Origin: Planctomycetaceae bacterium
Lineage (GTDB): Bacteria > Planctomycetota > Planctomycetia > Planctomycetales > Planctomycetaceae
NCBI GenBank assembly: GCA_024742875.1
Contig: JANSXP010000013.1
Span: 73,218 to 137,217, forward strand
Direction of reading: 5' to 3'
Length of the DNA: 64,000 bases
The position numbers and the translations under genes were made by a program. Each line of letters opens with the position of its first letter. Position 1 is the stretch's first letter. The notes beneath the pieces are model-generated. The model was not told where the DNA came from, did no database searches, and saw only the letters and a list, made by a program, of their open reading frames with translations. Shown piece after piece: positions 30,465 to 38,511 of the stretch.

Positions 30465-30968
30465 ATGCTGCCAATTTGCCGAATCATGCCTGTCGCGTTC
30501 GTCACCCTGCTGATTTGCGGCTGTGGCGACTCTGAAGTTGCCGTTCTCCAGGAGCAGTATCTTCTGGCCGAGGAACCCGCAGGCGCCCAGGTGGTGTCTC
30601 GTATTCGTTCCGCCCTGCAGGCAGACGATGCGCCCGCTTCCATTGACGTCGTGCTGGCCGGACGCATCTATGCGGGCAAGGATTCCGAGCCGTGGTCCGC
30701 GGGCAAGTGTGCGTTTATCCTGACGGACTTCGCTGGCCACAATGGCGACTCAGAACATGACCCCTATGAGTGCCCGTTCTGCAGTGAGTCGATTGAAGAC
30801 TACCGCGTCTTCGTCAACTTCGGAGAAAATGGCGCGGCGGCTGAGGTCGACGCCCGCGAAGTGTTCAATGTCAAAGAACGACAGAAAGTCACCCTGGCCG
30901 GCACCGCCCGCCTCGATGAAGCGGGTGATGTGCTGATCGAAGGCAGTGGTCTGTTCATTCCGCAATAG
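30465..30968 (+). CDS. Small lipoprotein of unknown function
   Basis: The protein has 167 aa. The hydrophobic N terminus VAFVTLLICGCGDSE has a likely lipobox with Cys20. The mature part is beta-rich, with CPFCSES (a CxxC around residue 104-107) and a GHNGDSEHD stretch just before it, together a possible metal site. SIDVVLAGRIYAG and VKERQKVTLAGTARLDEAGDVLIEGSGLFI look like an OB-fold-type lipoprotein (similar in outline to tRNA-anticodon or NrfJ-like OB proteins), but I am not confident. Its 3' end overlaps the convergent permease by 14 bp. Context suggests a metal-related envelope role. Confidence 0.7.
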   Translation: MLPICRIMPVAFVTLLICGCGDSEVAVLQEQYLLAEEPAGAQVVSRIRSALQADDAPASIDVVLAGRIYAGKDSEPWSAGKCAFILTDFAGHNGDSEHDPYECPFCSESIEDYRVFVNFGENGAAAEVDAREVFNVKERQKVTLAGTARLDEAGDVLIEGSGLFIPQ

Positions 30969-32202
30969 GCAGCAGAGAGTCCGACGCGGCTTTCGCGGGC
31001 CGCTCACCGGAGTGTACGGTGGCTGAGAACCCCGCTCGTTCAATCGTACTCAGGACGGATTCCTCGGTGGCCGAGCCGCTCACCACCGCCGTACCGGTCG
31101 CGAAAGACACGGTCGCCTGATCCAGATCCGGCAGCGCCACGAGACTTTTTTCCAAACGGGAAGCGCATCCCTGGCACGTCATGCCGGTTACCACGAAAGA
31201 TCGCTGGGCGTCCGACGACGACGTGGTCCGACGACGCCACCAGCGGCTGACGTCACCGACTGCAAAACGCAGCAGCAACACCGCCAGGGTGATGGCCGAG
31301 GCCACGCGCCACCATGACGGACCATGCTCGTGCGTCATCAGGTGAGTCGGCGCGTTGGGCAGAAAATGATTGAAGAACAAACCAGCCGTCAGACTGCCTG
31401 CAATGATCGTCAGCAGATAAACGATCAGCGCTCTTCGCCCGAGTGCGCGAGACACAGCGCCCAGTGTGGCCACATTGGTGGCCGGGCCGGCCATCAGAAA
31501 CACGAGTGCAGCTCCGGTGGGCAGTCCCGCACTGACCAGAGCCGCGGCGATCGGAACGGAAGCGGTGGCACACACGTAAAGCGGTAAAGACAGCACGAGT
31601 GTGATCAGCAGTGCGGCGGGTCCGTTCAGCAGGGGCAGCGTACGCAGGGAGTTCTCCGGCACCAGCCACGTAATGGCCGCAGAGATGAGGACACCCAGCA
31701 GCAGCCAGCCCCAGATGGATTCGATCACTTTCGTACAGTGGGCCAGCAATGGTCTCCAGAAGCCAGTCGCCTGGTGAGGAGGGTGAGCGGCTGCCAGGTC
31801 GTTGCCCGAGCCACTCGCGTGATCCAGATCTGTGATCAGTCCGCCTGCCAGGCCTGTCACCAGAGCGACCAGCACTTTGAGCACAGCGAACGGCCATCCC
31901 AGCAGGGAGCCACTGACAAGCAGCGAATCCACACCGGTCTGTGGCGTGCTGATCAGAAAGCCGACGGCCGCCCCACGACTGGCGCCATCTTTTCGCAGAC
32001 CCACACCGACGGGAATCACTCCACAGGAACACAAAGGCAGCGGAACGCCAATCGCCACTGCCTTGAACACACCCAGGCGGCCTGACAGATGTTTCTTCAT
32101 CCAGCCTGGTGGCATCAGCACGTGCAGCAATCCTGCCGCCACGGCGCCCAGCAGCAGCCACGGCGCAAGTTCCAGCCAGATGTTCCAGATTGCCGTCAGC
32201 AC
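30955..32202 (-). CDS. SO_0444-type permease (DUF318) fused to a heavy-metal-associated domain
   Basis: The protein has 415 aa from a GTG at 32202, which has GAGG 7 bp upstream and begins just before the first membrane helix. The frame also continues to a GTG at 32253 (17 residues more). About ten hydrophobic helices carry PLPLCSCGVIPVG and ISTPQTGVDSLLV, the cysteine-containing signature of SO_0444-family Cu/Zn efflux permeases. The cytoplasmic C terminus contains FVVTGMTCQGCASRLEKSL, an HMA domain with a CxxC metal site. A periplasmic loop carries HLMTHEHGP. It should move Cu(I), Zn(II) or a similar metal across the inner membrane. Divergent from it is a secreted protein; convergent are two lipoproteins. 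Confidence 0.9.
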   Translation of the reverse strand: MLTAIWNIWLELAPWLLLGAVAAGLLHVLMPPGWMKKHLSGRLGVFKAVAIGVPLPLCSCGVIPVGVGLRKDGASRGAAVGFLISTPQTGVDSLLVSGSLLGWPFAVLKVLVALVTGLAGGLITDLDHASGSGNDLAAAHPPHQATGFWRPLLAHCTKVIESIWGWLLLGVLISAAITWLVPENSLRTLPLLNGPAALLITLVLSLPLYVCATASVPIAAALVSAGLPTGAALVFLMAGPATNVATLGAVSRALGRRALIVYLLTIIAGSLTAGLFFNHFLPNAPTHLMTHEHGPSWWRVASAITLAVLLLRFAVGDVSRWWRRRTTSSSDAQRSFVVTGMTCQGCASRLEKSLVALPDLDQATVSFATGTAVVSGSATEESVLSTIERAGFSATVHSGERPAKAASDSLLPIAE

Positions 32203-32458
32203 GATTCTGCCTCGAAGTCGGCCTGATTGAGGGTCACCCGCGGTCCATTCCACAAAGCGTCACCTGCAAAAGCGACAGGACAGGCCGCATCCTGACAAAA
32301 ACGCGGTCATTGATCACAGGAAAACGGCCGCAAATCACACGGTTTTCGGAGCAGGGTCGGCAGATCGGCCATTCACCGAGCGATTTTGTGTAACACACGG
32401 CCCGCTCTTTCGCTGAGAAGATCAGACACCCCAATCCACTTTTGCATCGAGCGTCATC

Positions 32459-33388
32459 ATGAACATCCGAGCCTTTTTCCTGACTGCTGTTGTGCTGACA
32501 GGTTCACTGTCGTCTGACATCTGTCGGGCAGATTCCGACGAGCTGTTCTCTGAAATTCCGTCAGGCTCAGTTTTTGGAGGCACGGACGCTGCGAATTCAT
32601 CCGCCGGAGAGCAGATGCAAAGCGCGGAAGATCTCCGCGAGCTGCTGAAGGCCGCTGGCTTTGATGCCAAAATCGCCGGCAGCCGGCAGGCCACCGCCAC
32701 AAAGAAACTTGATCCCTGGACCTTCCCGTTGCTGCTGGAACTCTCTGAGGAGGAATCCACAGTCACCGTCTCTTTGGGTCTGGCCACGGTACGCGACACG
32801 CAGCAACTGACGGCCAACAAACTGCTGCAGATGATGAAGGTCAGCCGTGAGCACGCGCCCATGATGCTGCTCTACAACGCCGCACGTGAGCGCACAGAGA
32901 TTTGTCGCACCCTGGACAATCGCAATCTGTCCGCAGAGCAGCTGCGGCGAACCATCAATCGCATGGCGGTTCTCGCAAAAAGCCGGGCGAGCCTCTGGGC
33001 CAGTGGCGAACAGCAGCAGGGCGGATCTCCGGCGGCACAGCAGCCCGCACCGGCACAGCAGCCCGCACCAGCACAGCAGCCGACGCCCACGCCTCAGGCC
33101 AGCCCCGAGGTTTCGATCACCGCCCTGACAGGAAAGTGGGCCGCCTCACGATCCGCCACAGAAGCGTTCGGAATCGAATTCCGACAGGACGGTACGTTCA
33201 ACCTGGTCTACGTCAACAACGCTCAGCAGTCAAAGTCCTCGGGACGCTTCACGCTGACGAGCGGAAACCTGCAACTGAATGGCAATGACGGTTTGAAGCT
33301 CGGCGGCAAACTGACGCTGAAATCCGGCAGCGAATTTCAATTCGAACCCGCCGGCTCAGCCGCCATGACGTTCCGCAAAGCACAGTAA
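32459..33388 (+). CDS. Secreted two-domain protein (YbjN-like N-terminal, lipocalin-like C-terminal)
   Basis: The protein has 309 aa with a signal peptide ending near ICRA. Residues of about 55-180 (LRELLKAAGFDAKIAG...LNRM-like helix and strand pattern) resemble the YbjN / type III chaperone-like fold in outline. A low-complexity linker follows, made of the unit A-Q-Q-P-A-P repeated (DNA 33036-33090). The last 95 residues, starting TALTGKWAASRSATEAFGIEF, form an antiparallel beta block like small lipocalin-type domains. No catalytic residue is evident. The role may be binding of an envelope ligand or protein; this is inference. Confidence 0.72.
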   Translation: MNIRAFFLTAVVLTGSLSSDICRADSDELFSEIPSGSVFGGTDAANSSAGEQMQSAEDLRELLKAAGFDAKIAGSRQATATKKLDPWTFPLLLELSEEESTVTVSLGLATVRDTQQLTANKLLQMMKVSREHAPMMLLYNAARERTEICRTLDNRNLSAEQLRRTINRMAVLAKSRASLWASGEQQQGGSPAAQQPAPAQQPAPAQQPTPTPQASPEVSITALTGKWAASRSATEAFGIEFRQDGTFNLVYVNNAQQSKSSGRFTLTSGNLQLNGNDGLKLGGKLTLKSGSEFQFEPAGSAAMTFRKAQ

Positions 33389-33518
33389 TCATGCGTGCGA
33401 TGGACCACGCCACGCACTGCGGATGACCGGCCGGATCTCCATGATCCGGCCGGATTTGCATCTGCCTCGGCATCCCGGAGAATACGCAGAGCGAGGGAAA
33501 TCGGGCCGGAGCGATTCA

Positions 33519-34232
33519 ATGGACGTGTACGAGGTGGAGTGTGACTGCGGGCAGCGTCTGAGCGTCGAACTGCACGAGGCGGGCACCCGCAAAAACTGTC
33601 CCGGCTGCAGGGGGACGGTCATCGTGCCCGACACCGTCAAACTGAAGCAGGCCGCCGGTGATCCTTATCCGCTGCTTTCGGCCCGCCAGAAGATTCGCTG
33701 GACGCTGGAAGCCGGCGAGCCGCCGTTCGACGGGCGGTGTCACAACGGCTGTCAGCGACCCGCCGCACTGGAAACACAGTGCCGGCTGGAAATTCTCGAA
33801 CAGCGAATCGTCGACGACGATCAGAACGGCGTGTTCCCCACGATCACCGGAGACCTGTCGTTCCGAGCCGCCGCCACCGAGGAACAGTGGACAACCCTGT
33901 TTGTGCCACTTTGGCTGTGCGAATCCTGCCAGCAGCAGTTTCGACGCGATCGCAAACGGGCCCGCTGGTTCAGTTTCTGCAAACACGTGGGACTGCTGGG
34001 GATATTCGGCGCATTTATTGCATGGGTTGTTGTGGACCCAGAGCAGGTGGCCGCAATGGCAGGCCTGTTCAGTGTGATCGGCGCGGTGGCCTGGATGGCG
34101 CAGTTCCGGCTGAACCGACAGGAGTGCCCCGCCACGGCAAGATATGTGCGGCGAATTCGCTGGATGTCCGAGTTTCTGGACAGCGAAGACGAATACCGCC
34201 TCACCCCCGCCCGGGCAAAAAGAAAAACGTAA
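33519..34232 (+). CDS. Zinc-ribbon membrane protein, first gene of the protease-PARG operon
   Basis: The protein has 237 aa from the ATG at 33519; earlier in-frame ATGs (33423, 33441) lie before a non-coding-looking stretch. The N terminus is a zinc ribbon (VECDCGQRLSV...KNCPGCRGTVIVP) with two CxC/CxxC knuckles. A second Cys pair (CESCQQQF, about residue 137) follows. One or two hydrophobic helices (VGLLGIFGAFIAWVVV and MAGLFSVIGAVAWMAQF) anchor the protein, and a basic tail faces the cytoplasm. It is followed after 24 bp by a trypsin-like protease. Function unknown; it could recruit the protease or a nucleic acid to the membrane. Confidence 0.75.
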   Translation: MDVYEVECDCGQRLSVELHEAGTRKNCPGCRGTVIVPDTVKLKQAAGDPYPLLSARQKIRWTLEAGEPPFDGRCHNGCQRPAALETQCRLEILEQRIVDDDQNGVFPTITGDLSFRAAATEEQWTTLFVPLWLCESCQQQFRRDRKRARWFSFCKHVGLLGIFGAFIAWVVVDPEQVAAMAGLFSVIGAVAWMAQFRLNRQECPATARYVRRIRWMSEFLDSEDEYRLTPARAKRKT

Positions 34233-34256
34233 TCCCATTTTCCCCAAAGGGCTGGC

Positions 34257-35075
34257 ATGGCAGATTTTCAGGGCCTCTCACCAATCTTTGCAGGGCGTGG
34301 TGTCAGGACGGGCGAGTGGGCCATCGTGCTGCTCATTTTGTGTGGCCGGTCGCTGGCTGACGATCTTCCTCGCTGGGATCGCGCCATCTGCCTGCAGTCT
34401 GTTGAGCAGGCCGGGCAGGAATCACGCAAGCACCTGGCCACCGGGTTTCTCGTGCGCCATCAGAAGCGCCTGTTTCTGGTTACCGCCGATCATGCGGCCC
34501 GCCAGACCAACAGAAATACGCGAGTGCTGTATGCGGACGGAGAAGGCAAACCGCAATGGGCCGCGCTAAAAGCTTTGTGTCCTGGCAACCGTCCTCCGTG
34601 GCGGCGGTTTGAGAACTCCGATCTGGCGACCGCAGAAGTGGTTTCCGCCGATCTGCCGCAACCGGTGGCCGAGTGGATGCAGCGCATGGCCATCCCACAC
34701 GCTGACATTGCCGACACAGACCCCGAGCGCACGACGGACATCGAAGTGGCCGGCTTTCCCATGGGACTGGGGCTGCAGCAGCAGGTCAGTCCGATCGTGG
34801 TCAAAGGGCACATCGCTTCCCGGGCGATTGCCACGGAAAACGAATGGGGTTCCGAACCAATGCTGTACAGCTTTCCCGATCTGGCTCAGGGCACCAGCGG
34901 GGGGCCCGTGTTTCTGTCCGATGACGATTCAAAAGCCACAACACTGGTTGGAATGTACGTGGGCGTGATCTTTGACAAGTCCGGCGGCAAGCTGTCCAAG
35001 CTGGTGCCGTCACGACTGATCAAAAATGCAGTGGCCCGGCATCCCCGTTCCGAAACGCCCAACGGAGATAAATGA
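34257..35075 (+). CDS. Exported trypsin-like serine protease
   Basis: The protein has 272 aa. The N terminus has a hydrophobic stretch (GEWAIVLLILCGRSLADD), probably an export signal. The catalytic triad of the chymotrypsin fold is visible: LFLVTADHAAR (His79), FENSDLATAEV (Asp122) and LAQGTSGGPVFLS (Ser214). There is no PDZ domain, so it is a single-domain protease unlike DegP. It overlaps the macrodomain gene by 4 bp (ATGA) and follows the zinc-ribbon membrane protein closely. Several bacterial conflict and stress modules include a lone trypsin-like protease; that role is inference here. Confidence 0.88.
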   Translation: MADFQGLSPIFAGRGVRTGEWAIVLLILCGRSLADDLPRWDRAICLQSVEQAGQESRKHLATGFLVRHQKRLFLVTADHAARQTNRNTRVLYADGEGKPQWAALKALCPGNRPPWRRFENSDLATAEVVSADLPQPVAEWMQRMAIPHADIADTDPERTTDIEVAGFPMGLGLQQQVSPIVVKGHIASRAIATENEWGSEPMLYSFPDLAQGTSGGPVFLSDDDSKATTLVGMYVGVIFDKSGGKLSKLVPSRLIKNAVARHPRSETPNGDK

Positions 35076-36127
35076 TGCTGACTCGCCTGCTGCATCTTCT
35101 GCATCTGACGACTGCCCCCACCCGGTCCTTGTCAGGAGAAACACGCGCCCTGATGTCTGAGCGTGAGCAATCGCTGCTGGGATCCATCACAATCGCCAAT
35201 GAAAGGCTGTGGCGCGAGCATCCGCCGCAGCCCGAGCACGCCAATAAGAAAAGACTGCTGGAACTGGCGGGCCAGCAGGTTCCCGCCGGCCATGTGACCA
35301 TCGAACGCTGCGATGCGGCCACACTACCGGAGACGTATGTTCCCTATGCGCCGGCCACCAGAATTGTGCCTCGCCGTGGACACTTCCGTTACCAGCCGGA
35401 CGAGCAGGCCGACCAGCAGCACTGGTTCATGAACTTCGCCCACCATGACGCGTTTTGCTGTTATCCTCATTTTCAATTCGCTCAGGATGAAATTCAGGTG
35501 GCCGAGCACCCGCTGCTGGCCAGTGTGAGAGAACACCTCTGCCGCCGGCAGGATCAACTCACCGCCCGCTGCGTCGAGCACGGTTCGCCCCGACCACTGC
35601 TCATCCACAATGTGCCCCGACAGCTGAACATCGAAACCCGGGAAATCTACGGACAGCGGTTTGCCCGCGCCGATGACGAACTGCTTTGTGCCTGCACCCA
35701 CGTGCTGCATCCCACAACGGTCAGCAACATCCTGGCCATCGAAGCGCCCGTCCAGCAGGGCCACACAACCTACTCCCTCGAGGAAATCACATATGCTCTG
35801 CAGACAGCGTACAGCGGCTTTCGCAGCGTGGTGCGGGCCTCCGTGGCGGCCGGGCACACCGACGTCACACTGCACACCGGCAACTGGGGATGCGGGGCTT
35901 ACGGCGGCAACCGACAGTTGATGCTCTCGGTGCAGTTGCTGGCGGCACGAATGGCGGGAGTGGCGACGCTGATTGTCTATTGCGGGACCGACAGCAAAGA
36001 CGACATCGCCACGTTTGATACCGAACTGACGAAACGGTTTCGATGTCGTCCGGGAACATCCGTCGCCGCCATTTGCGATCGACTGGCGGCCGCCCGGTTC
36101 CCCTGGGGAACATCAGACGGAAACTAA
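35072..36127 (+). CDS. Divergent poly(ADP-ribose) glycohydrolase-like macrodomain protein
   Basis: The protein has 351 aa, translationally coupled to the protease gene. The key segment HTGNWGCGAYGGNRQLMLSVQLLAA (Thr269 to about 293) matches in order and spacing the ADP-ribose-binding block of eukaryotic-type PARG (TGNWGCGAFGG... in human PARG). Upstream, NILAIEAP corresponds to the PARG strand IVAIDA, and MNFAHHD...FAQDEIQVAEHPLL resembles the catalytic loop VDFANR...VQEEIRFL, with Gln138-Asp139-Glu140 in place of Gln-Glu-Glu. The GGG loop of active PARGs is replaced by CCYPHFQ. It may hydrolyse ADP-ribose chains or only bind ADP-ribose. There is no signal peptide. Confidence 0.8.
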   Translation: MMLTRLLHLLHLTTAPTRSLSGETRALMSEREQSLLGSITIANERLWREHPPQPEHANKKRLLELAGQQVPAGHVTIERCDAATLPETYVPYAPATRIVPRRGHFRYQPDEQADQQHWFMNFAHHDAFCCYPHFQFAQDEIQVAEHPLLASVREHLCRRQDQLTARCVEHGSPRPLLIHNVPRQLNIETREIYGQRFARADDELLCACTHVLHPTTVSNILAIEAPVQQGHTTYSLEEITYALQTAYSGFRSVVRASVAAGHTDVTLHTGNWGCGAYGGNRQLMLSVQLLAARMAGVATLIVYCGTDSKDDIATFDTELTKRFRCRPGTSVAAICDRLAAARFPWGTSDGN

Positions 36128-36151
36128 CCCCCCAACGCAGCGACAAGACGG

Positions 36152-36730
36152 ATGCCAGGTCCCAGCGAATTTCAATACCTCAAACAACGTCCCCGCGCCT
36201 TTCGGATGACGGCCGAAGACGTTCATGCTCGGTTTCAAGCGTGCGGCGTTCCGACAGAACATACGTTTGTCGATTTTCAACAAACGTATGGCGGCTACCA
36301 GCCGCATGAGGATCTGTGTTTCGGCATTGTTGAACCGTCCGGCAAACCAGAACCTGGCCGTGTGGAGCACTGGGATGGTGAACTGCGGGTCCGCTGCGAC
36401 GTGCGTTCGCTGGTGCAGATTGACTACTGGCTGGCGATCGACGGGCGCCTGTATTACGGACCAAACTGCGTGGCGTCGTCGTTTGAAAATTACATCCGTT
36501 ACAGCGCCTACCTGCAGCAGCAGCTCGATCCACTGAACTACACGTACATCGACAATGAGCGACGGCAGACCAAACGCTTCGCTCCGCTAATCGACAGCCT
36601 GAAGACGTCCGTCGTGCGGGAAGTCAGCGACCCTTATCACACGGTCCGACGCGGTGATGAGGCTTTCTGGCTGGAAATCTGCGGGCGACGCGACCTGTAC
36701 GTCTGCCCAAAGCGACTGCAGCAGAAATAG
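36152..36730 (+). CDS. SUKH (SMI1/KNR4)-like small protein
   Basis: The protein has 192 aa, 24 bp after the macrodomain gene on the same strand. The layout is consistent with a SUKH-fold: an N-terminal helix and a THTFVDFQQTYGG-like opening (EHTFVDFQQTYGGYQPHEDLCFGI), a beta-rich middle, and a closing strand and helix YGPNCVASSFENYIRYSAYL that resembles the SUKH ending 'aSSFeeFl'. SUKH proteins are common immunity or protein-binding factors. A C-terminal region of about 60 residues is extra. The match is by eye and weak, so the call is tentative; an unrelated planctomycete protein is possible. Confidence 0.55.
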   Translation: MPGPSEFQYLKQRPRAFRMTAEDVHARFQACGVPTEHTFVDFQQTYGGYQPHEDLCFGIVEPSGKPEPGRVEHWDGELRVRCDVRSLVQIDYWLAIDGRLYYGPNCVASSFENYIRYSAYLQQQLDPLNYTYIDNERRQTKRFAPLIDSLKTSVVREVSDPYHTVRRGDEAFWLEICGRRDLYVCPKRLQQK

Positions 36731-36774
36731 GCCTGTCGCTGCAGCGGCAACAGCCACACCGAACGGGTCAGACA

Positions 36775-38511
36775 CTAGCGTCCGCCGCGGCCTGTTGTCT
36801 GCTGAGGTTTGCGACTGGTGATCTCCGTTGGCGCTGCTTCCGTTGCCTTAAACGACACGCGAAGCTGTCCGCCCAGAGACTGAATGCGGTGAATGCGAAC
36901 CGAAGGCAGCTGGTCGGCAAACTTTGTCAGGTCGATCTGCCGCGGCAGTTCTGTTTCGGGGATCAGATCGATCACGCGCTCGACCTGACCGTTGATCAGG
37001 TTGGTCCAGTTGTCCGGCTGCTCGTTGGTGCTGGCAGCCGCCACAGAAATGTCGCTGACAAACAGCGCCCAGCCACCACTGTCGGTGCCTCGCCCCTTCA
37101 ACTGCACAGTCATCAACTGGGTGACGCTGGCGTTTCCGGATTTCGGCAGAATCTGAAAGCGAAACTGCAGCTGCAGCCGTCCATCGCGAAAACGCACGCC
37201 CAGCGGCTGGGAGTCAGCCAGACGCAGCGAGAACAGCACAGGTTCGGCCGTGGAGTCACGCAGAGACTGCAGCGTTTCCAGCAAATGGGCTGGATTGCGG
37301 TCGCCATTTTTGTGATTCGTCACCAGTTGCTGCAGGGCAGAATCTGTAATGACCAGGCCGTTGAGCGCCTGATGGTCGAGCGTGTGATTAATGCCATCTT
37401 CTGAGACAAGAATGGCGGCCGCTTCCATCGGTGCAAGTTCCGCCTGCAGCTCACTGTCGGGAGAATGTGTGCGTGACAGAACGGATCGATTGGTGACGAT
37501 TGTGGTGAAGCTGTCCTTGGTGCTGCTGGCCGACCACGCCACGCGATCGCTGCCTGTCAGGGCTGCCAGCCGCTGCCGCATGCCCGTCCATTTCCGATTG
37601 AAGTCGGTGAGCTGCTGATCCACGGACTGGTTGACGCGGGGAAATACGTCGTCCGCCACGCGGCGCACCACAATGGCATCTGACTGCGGCATCCGCCGCA
37701 ACACTTCGTTCCAGGCCATCTGATCACCGAGGGGACCGATCAGCGGCATACCAGAGGCACGCGTGCTGACCTGCTGCGGGGTCTGCCGCACCTGCAGGCC
37801 ACCGTAAGCCGGCTTGGTGAGAAACCTGCGGCCATCAAAATAGACCGGCTTGATTACGTTAAACGTGTGGTTGCCAGCGGTGGTGATGCGTGCCTGTGGC
37901 GTGTAGCCCACCGTATTGCTGTTCACTGTGCCCTGTGCGATCACGTTGAGTCGCGCCATGCGAGCATTGTCGGCCGACTGCAGCTGCACAAACGTGGCCG
38001 TCGTCTGGACGCCACGAACATCGGCTTCCAGAACCCGCGTGGCCACATTGTCGCTTTCGATCTTCTGATCTTCGACAAATCGATTCAGCAGCGAAGAGCG
38101 AATCGTGACCGCCACGTCTCCGGTGGCTGGTGGTGCAGACACAATGGGAGATCGCGCTGAGAATTCTCGATCCGGAAGCGACCGCCGATTCTCGTCCGAC
38201 GTCCTGTCAGTGTCTGCAGATCGATCCGAAGACATGGAGTCCGAAGGAGGATCTGTCCGCGGCAGAAACTCGCGTTCGCCCGGCTTCAGTCGCTGCTGCA
38301 TGCGAGGTGCGGGCGCGGAGAGGGGCTGGTCTCCCGCCGGTCGTGACTCGGAAAAAGCGGGCGGAGAATCGGAGGCTGGTTTGTCACCATCTTTGAGGCC
38401 CGGAATGGTGAGCGTCGGGAAGTCTTCCTGACACCACGCCACGGGTGAACTGCAGCACACAGCGGTGCTGAAGGCAACGACCAGCAGGAATCGAAACGGC
38501 AGAGAAACCAT
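36775..38511 (-). CDS. Secreted protein of unknown function with low-complexity N-terminal region
   Basis: The protein has 578 aa from the ATG at 38511, which directly precedes a signal peptide (LPFRFLLVVAFSTAVCC). Residues of about 30-135 are Pro/Ser/Asp/Arg-rich and probably unstructured. The remaining 440 residues alternate strands and helices (VAVTIRSSLLNRFVEDQKIESDNVATRVLEADVRGVQTTATF...), suggesting a folded envelope domain with many VRGxx and TxxN turns. No catalytic motif or known family is recognised. It is divergent from the glycosyltransferase gene and convergent with the SUKH-like gene. Confidence 0.75.
   Translation of the reverse strand: MVSLPFRFLLVVAFSTAVCCSSPVAWCQEDFPTLTIPGLKDGDKPASDSPPAFSESRPAGDQPLSAPAPRMQQRLKPGEREFLPRTDPPSDSMSSDRSADTDRTSDENRRSLPDREFSARSPIVSAPPATGDVAVTIRSSLLNRFVEDQKIESDNVATRVLEADVRGVQTTATFVQLQSADNARMARLNVIAQGTVNSNTVGYTPQARITTAGNHTFNVIKPVYFDGRRFLTKPAYGGLQVRQTPQQVSTRASGMPLIGPLGDQMAWNEVLRRMPQSDAIVVRRVADDVFPRVNQSVDQQLTDFNRKWTGMRQRLAALTGSDRVAWSASSTKDSFTTIVTNRSVLSRTHSPDSELQAELAPMEAAAILVSEDGINHTLDHQALNGLVITDSALQQLVTNHKNGDRNPAHLLETLQSLRDSTAEPVLFSLRLADSQPLGVRFRDGRLQLQFRFQILPKSGNASVTQLMTVQLKGRGTDSGGWALFVSDISVAAASTNEQPDNWTNLINGQVERVIDLIPETELPRQIDLTKFADQLPSVRIHRIQSLGGQLRVSFKATEAAPTEITSRKPQQTTGRGGR

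Follow-up and report, generated by a model that had tools for sequence, protein, structure and literature searches.

The cluster of four genes at positions 33,519 to 36,730 of a 64,000-nucleotide stretch of DNA from a Planctomycetaceae bacterium (assembly GCA_024742875.1, contig JANSXP010000013.1; the whole stretch is referred to as the window) raises the question of whether a PARG-like macrodomain protein acts together with the zinc-ribbon membrane protein, the trypsin-like protease and the 192-residue protein that are encoded beside it. The original prediction, made from the letters of the sequence, was a system that senses or reverses ADP-ribosylation with an attached protease output. The present analysis indicates that the PARG-like protein, the product of the third gene, is probably an ADP-ribose binder and not a glycohydrolase of the ordinary kind, and that the four genes do not constitute a conserved module, each of them being sparsely distributed in its own way.

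The predicted macrodomain in gene 3 is well founded. The protein matches PARG_cat_C (PF05028) at 2.7e-13, with 50.4 bits against a cut-off of 26.3, in a match that spans only profile positions 114–200 of 207, and its structure model (predicted local distance difference test score, pLDDT, 87.1; predicted template modelling score, pTM, 0.89) has the canonical PARG fold over the whole domain. Canonical PARGs (human, mouse, Tetrahymena; PF05028) have in common with gene 3 the fold, the TGNWGCGA loop, Gln754 and the Pfam match, whereas gene 3 lacks the GGG-X6-8-QEE signature, carries Asn in place of Asp737, is bacterial and is shorter (351 residues versus ∼440–520 for the solved canonical catalytic domains). 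The bacterial-type PARGs (T. curvata and D. radiodurans; DUF2263) show lower structural similarity to gene 3, and none is found among its sequence matches at E ≤ 1. The T. curvata enzyme is described as keeping GGG-QEE, unlike gene 3.

Relatives of gene 3 occur in Planctomycetota, Verrucomicrobiota, Myxococcota and Spirochaetota, and 23 columns are invariant across 15 of the sequences. A 22-row tree puts the eight planctomycete rows in one group (support 97/92), three verrucomicrobial rows in a second (97/94), and Spirochaetota together with the myxobacterial row in a third (91/96); the place of a canonical sequence, L004 from genome G054, is unsure. Three individual loci of these relatives show further features. 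A Verrucomicrobiaceae metagenome-assembled genome (MAG) carries three PARG-like paralogues within 5.3 kb (L014, 9971–15220), one on the opposite strand and all without GGG. A PARG-like gene annotated as hypothetical lies on the T. saccharophilum plasmid pTS2 (L069, 6031–6996; NZ_AP025290.1), with genes for leucine-rich-repeat proteins nearby. Upstream of the PARG-like gene of a Planctomycetales MAG is a 71-bp tandem repeat of 3.4 copies with 93% matches (L011, 100–399).

The catalytic site has been rewritten throughout this clade. An alignment of 25 rows, three of them fragments that stop short of the site and one the canonical L004, leaves 21 clade rows, two of which (L020 and L021) are identical. 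In gene 3, FCC stands in place of GGG, Asn121 in place of Asp737 and QDE in place of QEE. The same pattern recurs in the relatives: the Asp737 equivalent is Asn in 21/21 rows, GGG is absent from 21/21, with its first Gly changed to Phe in every one, and Gln754 is retained in all 21. At the position of Glu756, 14 rows have Glu and seven have lost it (Lys in L015, Asp in L017 and Ala in five Treponema rows), all seven losses falling in the third group of the tree; the complete Gln-Asp-Glu is likewise retained in 14 of the 21. L004 has the canonical D, GGG and QEE at these positions. The register was checked with hhalign, in which the clade profile ran against L004 without a gap from NFA to QDE; as a second check, hmmsearch against human PARG gave a weak stretch (3.8 bits). 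The TGNWGCGAYGG block that had been picked out in gene 3 is present and corresponds to the PARG diphosphate-binding loop; the loop pattern G-x-G-A-F is met as GCGAY at residues 273–277, with Tyr replacing Phe, and Gly273 and Gly275 are found in all 21 clade rows.

An ADP-ribose-related setting for a member of the clade is seen in genome G165 (L028, 4728–9655; G165:C46:3000–20000), where an NrtR-like Nudix regulator, the PARG-like gene, an ADP-ribosylglycohydrolase (ARG) and two further genes follow one another on one strand. The regulator combines a Nudix domain with an NrtR winged helix (PF21906, 1.3e-30) and matches the NCBIfam model NF050029, "ADPR responsive transcriptional repressor," at 8.7e-59, scoring 199 bits where the cut-off is 400. 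The start of the PARG-like gene lies 18 bp past the regulator, and its end is overlapped by 11 bp by the ARG gene (PF03747, 8.1e-49), which has a low codon-usage score of 12.5. The last two genes have counterparts behind the G223 homologue, with 79% and 73% identity; these G223 copies encode a Band_7 protein (1.3e-16) and a protein with NAD-kinase matches below the cut-off (2.4e-07); the G165 copy of the NAD-kinase-like gene has no Pfam match. A palindrome-like TGT...ACA stretch was noticed by eye before the regulator.

With its NrtR-like Nudix regulator and ARG gene, the G165 operon resembles the ARG-centric NAD/ADP-ribose systems, for which the published account describes Nudix or WYL regulators, occurrence in planctomycetes and, sometimes, extra Macro genes (PMC9503650). 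The window differs from these systems, with no ARG, Nudix or WYL match among the scanned proteins (15 of the 16 genes called between 26,239 and 44,429). By tblastn at 1e-2, neither the Nudix nor the ARG gene had a detectable relative in the 64-kb window or in any examined locus outside G165. A different neighborhood is found in five Treponema loci (L016, L018, L019, L021, and L024), in which the PARG-like gene adjoins a ∼560-residue gene with an AAA domain and a 90-residue gene resembling the RNA-polymerase alpha C-terminal domain, both scanned in L021; in L018 the contig ends within the ∼560-residue gene. Four of these five loci have Ala in place of the catalytic Glu, which L016 keeps. A search of 12 genomes with the PARP profile PF00644 gave no match, and the control likewise was without a match anywhere, so that the result carries no weight.

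How these changes would affect the protein can be judged from work on PARG itself. Glu756 is the likely catalytic acid and Asp737 supports Glu755 (PMC3519477). The bovine equivalents of D737N and E755N abolished activity with no significant loss of inhibitor binding (PMC3519477). On this basis the PARG-fold protein would hold the ADP-ribose group in the usual macrodomain cleft via the intact TGNWGCGA loop, and the usual poly(ADP-ribose) cleavage would be lost, since neither the GGG loop nor the buried Asp backing the catalytic Glu remains. Its role would thus be to read or sense ADP-ribose or an ADP-ribosylated target; the planctomycete branch, which keeps Gln-Asp-Glu, may have some residual or altered hydrolase activity. 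Genes 1, 2 and 4, for the membrane protein, the protease and the 192-residue protein, would be separately distributed accessory genes on the same transcript and would not belong to any conserved ADP-ribosylation system. Taken as a whole, this explanation, drawn from sequence and modeled structure, has about an even chance of being correct. As for the predicted sensing or reversal of ADP-ribosylation, the PARG fold and the ADP-ribose context of G165 speak for the link to this modification, and reversal is weakened by the loss of both GGG and the Asp737 equivalent in every clade row.

Several observations weigh against this explanation. The Gln-Asp-Glu is present in all 12 planctomycete, verrucomicrobial and myxobacterial rows (8/8 for the planctomycetes), suggesting that the acidic residues are under selection and, with that, possible catalysis; together with the precedent of MavL, discussed below, the eight planctomycete rows provide the best arguments against a pure reader. 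In the T. curvata PARG, Ala at the Glu755 equivalent weakened ADP-ribose binding (PMC3519477). The Asn869 equivalent is variable in the clade (Asn, Phe or Tyr), and no residue could be assigned as the equivalent of Phe902 or of Glu727, where the alignments disagree by one or two positions. The genomic context is thin: among 28 Pfam-scanned neighbor proteins from 14 loci, two are ADP-ribose-related, both in G165, the other 26 being mixed (aconitase, isocitrate dehydrogenase, ABC transporter, AAA ATPase, and others) or unnamed, and tblastn at 1e-2 found no Nudix or ARG relative in the 18 kb examined of G223, whose homologue is 57% identical. Finally, genes 2 and 3 overlap by 4 bp, which suggests translational coupling.

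In the closest alternative, gene 3 is an active (ADP-ribosyl)hydrolase of changed specificity: Asp139-Glu140 would still provide acid chemistry, though for some linkage that is not poly(ADP-ribose), and the enzyme would strip ADP-ribose from proteins or RNA. Besides the 14 rows that retain Gln-Asp-Glu and the ARG neighbor in G165, there is precedent in the Arg-specific macrodomains of MavL/DUF4804, which, like gene 3, lack GGG-QEE. The presence or absence of GGG-X6-8-QEE has been used to separate erasers from readers, and MavL was accordingly suggested as a possible reader (PMC8699189); a later study reported it to be active as an Arg-specific hydrolase (PMC10951314). This precedent weakens any conclusion drawn from the missing signature alone. 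By their published description, these proteins have motifs of their own and a different strand connectivity. Bacterial-type PARGs can also protect against an RNA-targeting ADP-ribosyltransferase toxin (PMC11833690). In contrast, the Asp737 equivalent and GGG are changed in all 21 clade rows and Glu is lost in seven, and no active PARG that lacks GGG and bears the Asn was found in the accessible parts of the open-licence literature. A changed hydrolase is a serious possibility, albeit a less probable one; the reader is preferred because the Asn is invariant and one third of the clade has lost the Glu.

Altered PARG signatures as such are not new, since eukaryotic bacterial-type PARGs with partly conserved signatures have been mentioned (PMC4245714). 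For a bacterial PARG clade without GGG and bearing the Asn, no description was found in the accessible open-licence PMC literature. Such sequences fall under PF05028 and are thus within Pfam's reach, and Pfam annotation would label gene 3 a PARG, a label that would mislead if the whole clade is not PARG. In that case the clade would be a natural counterpart to the laboratory Asp-to-Asn mutant, with binding but no cutting. Tentatively, and with somewhat less confidence than the reader explanation for gene 3, we propose a bacterial PARG-fold class, spread over the four phyla named above, in which Asp737 has become Asn and GGG has become F-x-x, and whose role in NAD/ADP-ribose stress operons would be that of an ADP-ribose reader or of a hydrolase with a new specificity. 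In one of its branches, made up of five Treponema rows, Ala stands in the place of the catalytic Glu and an AAA ATPase gene lies next door.

It remains to consider the four genes as one stress or conflict system, with a PARG-like sensor, the protease as output, the 192-residue protein as immunity or adaptor protein and gene 1 as membrane anchor. The layout would favor it. As had been reported, the four genes lie on the same strand with gaps of 24, −4 and 24 bp, which the open reading frame (ORF) coordinates and a codon-usage gene caller bear out. Trained on the long ORFs of the window itself, this caller retains all four genes; it was chosen because a greedy longest-ORF caller lost PARG-like genes beneath longer antisense ORFs. 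Six-frame ORFs supplied what it overlooked, namely the PARG-like genes of L013 and L030, the L053 fragment, the gene 1 relatives of L048 and L049 and the 192-residue relative of L031. The G+C content of the four genes (0.57–0.62) is near that of the window (0.60). A scan of 33,200–37,000 gave no promoter-like site, where 0.9 would be expected by chance, a result of little weight, and seven terminator-like sites versus 3.8 expected, of which the three plus-strand ones fall within genes. From their arrangement the four genes look co-transcribed.

The distribution of the genes speaks against one system. All counts include the window's own genome; genes 1 and 2 were sought in 58 relatives, and genes 3 and 4 also in 392 genomes that sample part of the phylum, where the first five (gene 3) or first eight (gene 4) candidates per genome were scored. 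The 351-residue protein is matched in 4/58 relatives, two of the matches being partial or distant (G057 and G054), and in 6 of the 392 genomes; a pattern scan of genome contigs for it gave 15 loci. The 192-residue protein is matched in 2/58 (its own genome and G028), and its two-row profile finds 1/392, the own genome. The protease has matches in four relatives (own genome, G056, G048, and G039). The zinc-ribbon protein has 12, of which the good ones beyond the own genome are in G030 (37%) and G005 (53% over 89 residues), the remainder covering short zinc-ribbon stretches with E values of 1e-4 or weaker. Apart from the own genome, none of those searched contains complete matches to as many as two of the four genes; in G039, which has the protease, and G054, which has the canonical PARG, the second match is a 36–76-residue zinc-ribbon stretch of another protein, far off. 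Among the genomes searched, the four-gene cluster is present in this arrangement only in its own.

The neighborhoods of the PARG-like genes agree. Profiles of genes 1, 2 and 4 gave nothing better than E 0.25 against 2360 six-frame ORFs from 23 PARG-like loci (345,281 bases, including the L053 fragment and the canonical L054); the profiles recover their own members elsewhere, these members having been part of the profiles. At the nearest homologues, L011 (50% identity) and L012 (48%), there is no protease relative in the ∼0.3–0.6 kb present upstream and no 192-residue relative within 10 kb after the PARG-like gene. Homologues of each gene sit in other settings elsewhere. Protease relatives are preceded by a 223- or 209-residue gene, lipoprotein-like by eye (G056 and G048), or by a 113-residue gene (G039), and the relative of gene 4 lies beside genes that, by eye, we take to be purM and glnA. 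Moreover, if the protease is exported, as its N terminus suggests by eye, it would be across the membrane from the macrodomain. Scans of viral contigs for the PARG-like and 192-residue proteins, of phage records for the former and of plasmids for the latter gave nothing useful. The gene order around the 351-residue protein is thus not kept in the relatives reached, an outcome that the original prediction had itself named as one that would refute it, the claim of a four-gene system with protease output loses its main support, and we consider one system improbable. Gene packing is the sole pointer to a functional tie between the protease and the PARG-like protein, and, as the evidence stands, the quartet is best not treated as a new defense module.

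The genes that flank the cluster (309 and 593 residues) are matched in 7/7 congeners and are never adjacent there, being ∼466 kb apart in the single-contig G004 and on different contigs in the six draft genomes; the match to the 309-residue gene in G001 is weak (3.4e-5). Insertion of the cluster at a conserved junction was considered and is not shown, since with the flanking genes apart in all congeners no empty site can be read.

A functionless PARG-like paralogue, decaying or neutral, is very improbable, for although the gene is sparse in the sampled phylum, its 351-residue frame is open, its codon usage is typical of coding sequence, 23 columns are invariant over 15 sequences, and its relatives are spread over four phyla.

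Features of the four-gene cluster, in coordinates of the window
Feature	Position	Strand	Basis
Gene 1, 237 residues, zinc ribbon and membrane hairpin	33519-34232	+	ORF, codon usage, hydropathy
Zinc-ribbon Cys8 to Cys30 of gene 1	33540-33608	+	Read from translation
Gene 2, 272-residue trypsin-like serine protease	34257-35075	+	Trypsin_2 match, triad
Catalytic His79 of gene 2	34491-34493	+	Read from translation
Catalytic Asp122 of gene 2	34620-34622	+	Read from translation
Catalytic Ser214 of gene 2, in GTSGGP	34896-34898	+	Read from translation
Gene 3, 351-residue PARG-fold protein	35072-36127	+	PF05028 match, predicted fold
Gene 3 residues 121-140, equivalent of PARG Asp737-Glu756: NFAHHDAFCCYPHFQFAQDE	35432-35491	+	Alignment
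TGNWGCGAYGG, PARG diphosphate-binding loop, gene 3 residues 269-279	35876-35908	+	Translation, alignment
Gene 4, 192-residue protein, no family match	36152-36730	+	ORF, codon usage

The first two genes are much as predicted. In gene 1, the four zinc-ribbon cysteines (residues 8, 10, 27, and 30) are in place at the N terminus, with Pfam scores below the cut-off only, and the protein is described as anchored because of two hydrophobic stretches near residues 153–172 and 177–196 (best 19-residue mean hydropathy 1.89), which are consistent with a membrane hairpin. Gene 2 matches Trypsin_2 at 6.7e-10, above the curated Pfam cut-off, and the His79-Asp122-Ser214 triad is complete; it shares the profile match and the full triad with other Trypsin_2 serine proteases and has no unusual feature. 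The N-terminal signal sequence of gene 2 is a reading by eye, the best 19-residue hydropathy being merely 1.28. PADLOC profiles gave weak matches on the cluster proteins, to the protease only.

The SUKH-like ending ascribed to gene 4 was not confirmed. Searches of Pfam, NCBIfam and PADLOC at E ≤ 1 give no match to the protein, and against Pfam neither SMI1_KNR4 nor another SUKH profile appears even at E ≤ 10, a range in which the HMMER filters discard most weak matches. The sole relative found (L031, in G028) has Nif11 at 0.25 as its only Pfam match. A comparison by hhalign of gene 4 and this relative with seven SMI1_KNR4 members of the own genome gave a probability of 1.2%, with 33 columns aligned close to the N terminus, the region presumed to hold the SUKH motif; the comparison has low power, as two of the seven members themselves score below 10% when left out. 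The single-sequence structure model has a pLDDT of 35.2, too low to be usable, and a match to multidrug resistance protein 1 in the PDB (E 0.05) was taken as chance. That gene 4 is a SUKH protein is thus unproven.

Two further genes of this genome were noted. At 30,955–32,253 of the window, on the minus strand, lies an ArsP_1 family permease fused to a heavy-metal-associated domain. On contig 144 of the same genome, an ORF adjoining an SMI1/KNR4 match (L060, 825–1280) resembles, by its motif, a NADAR ADP-ribose glycosidase.

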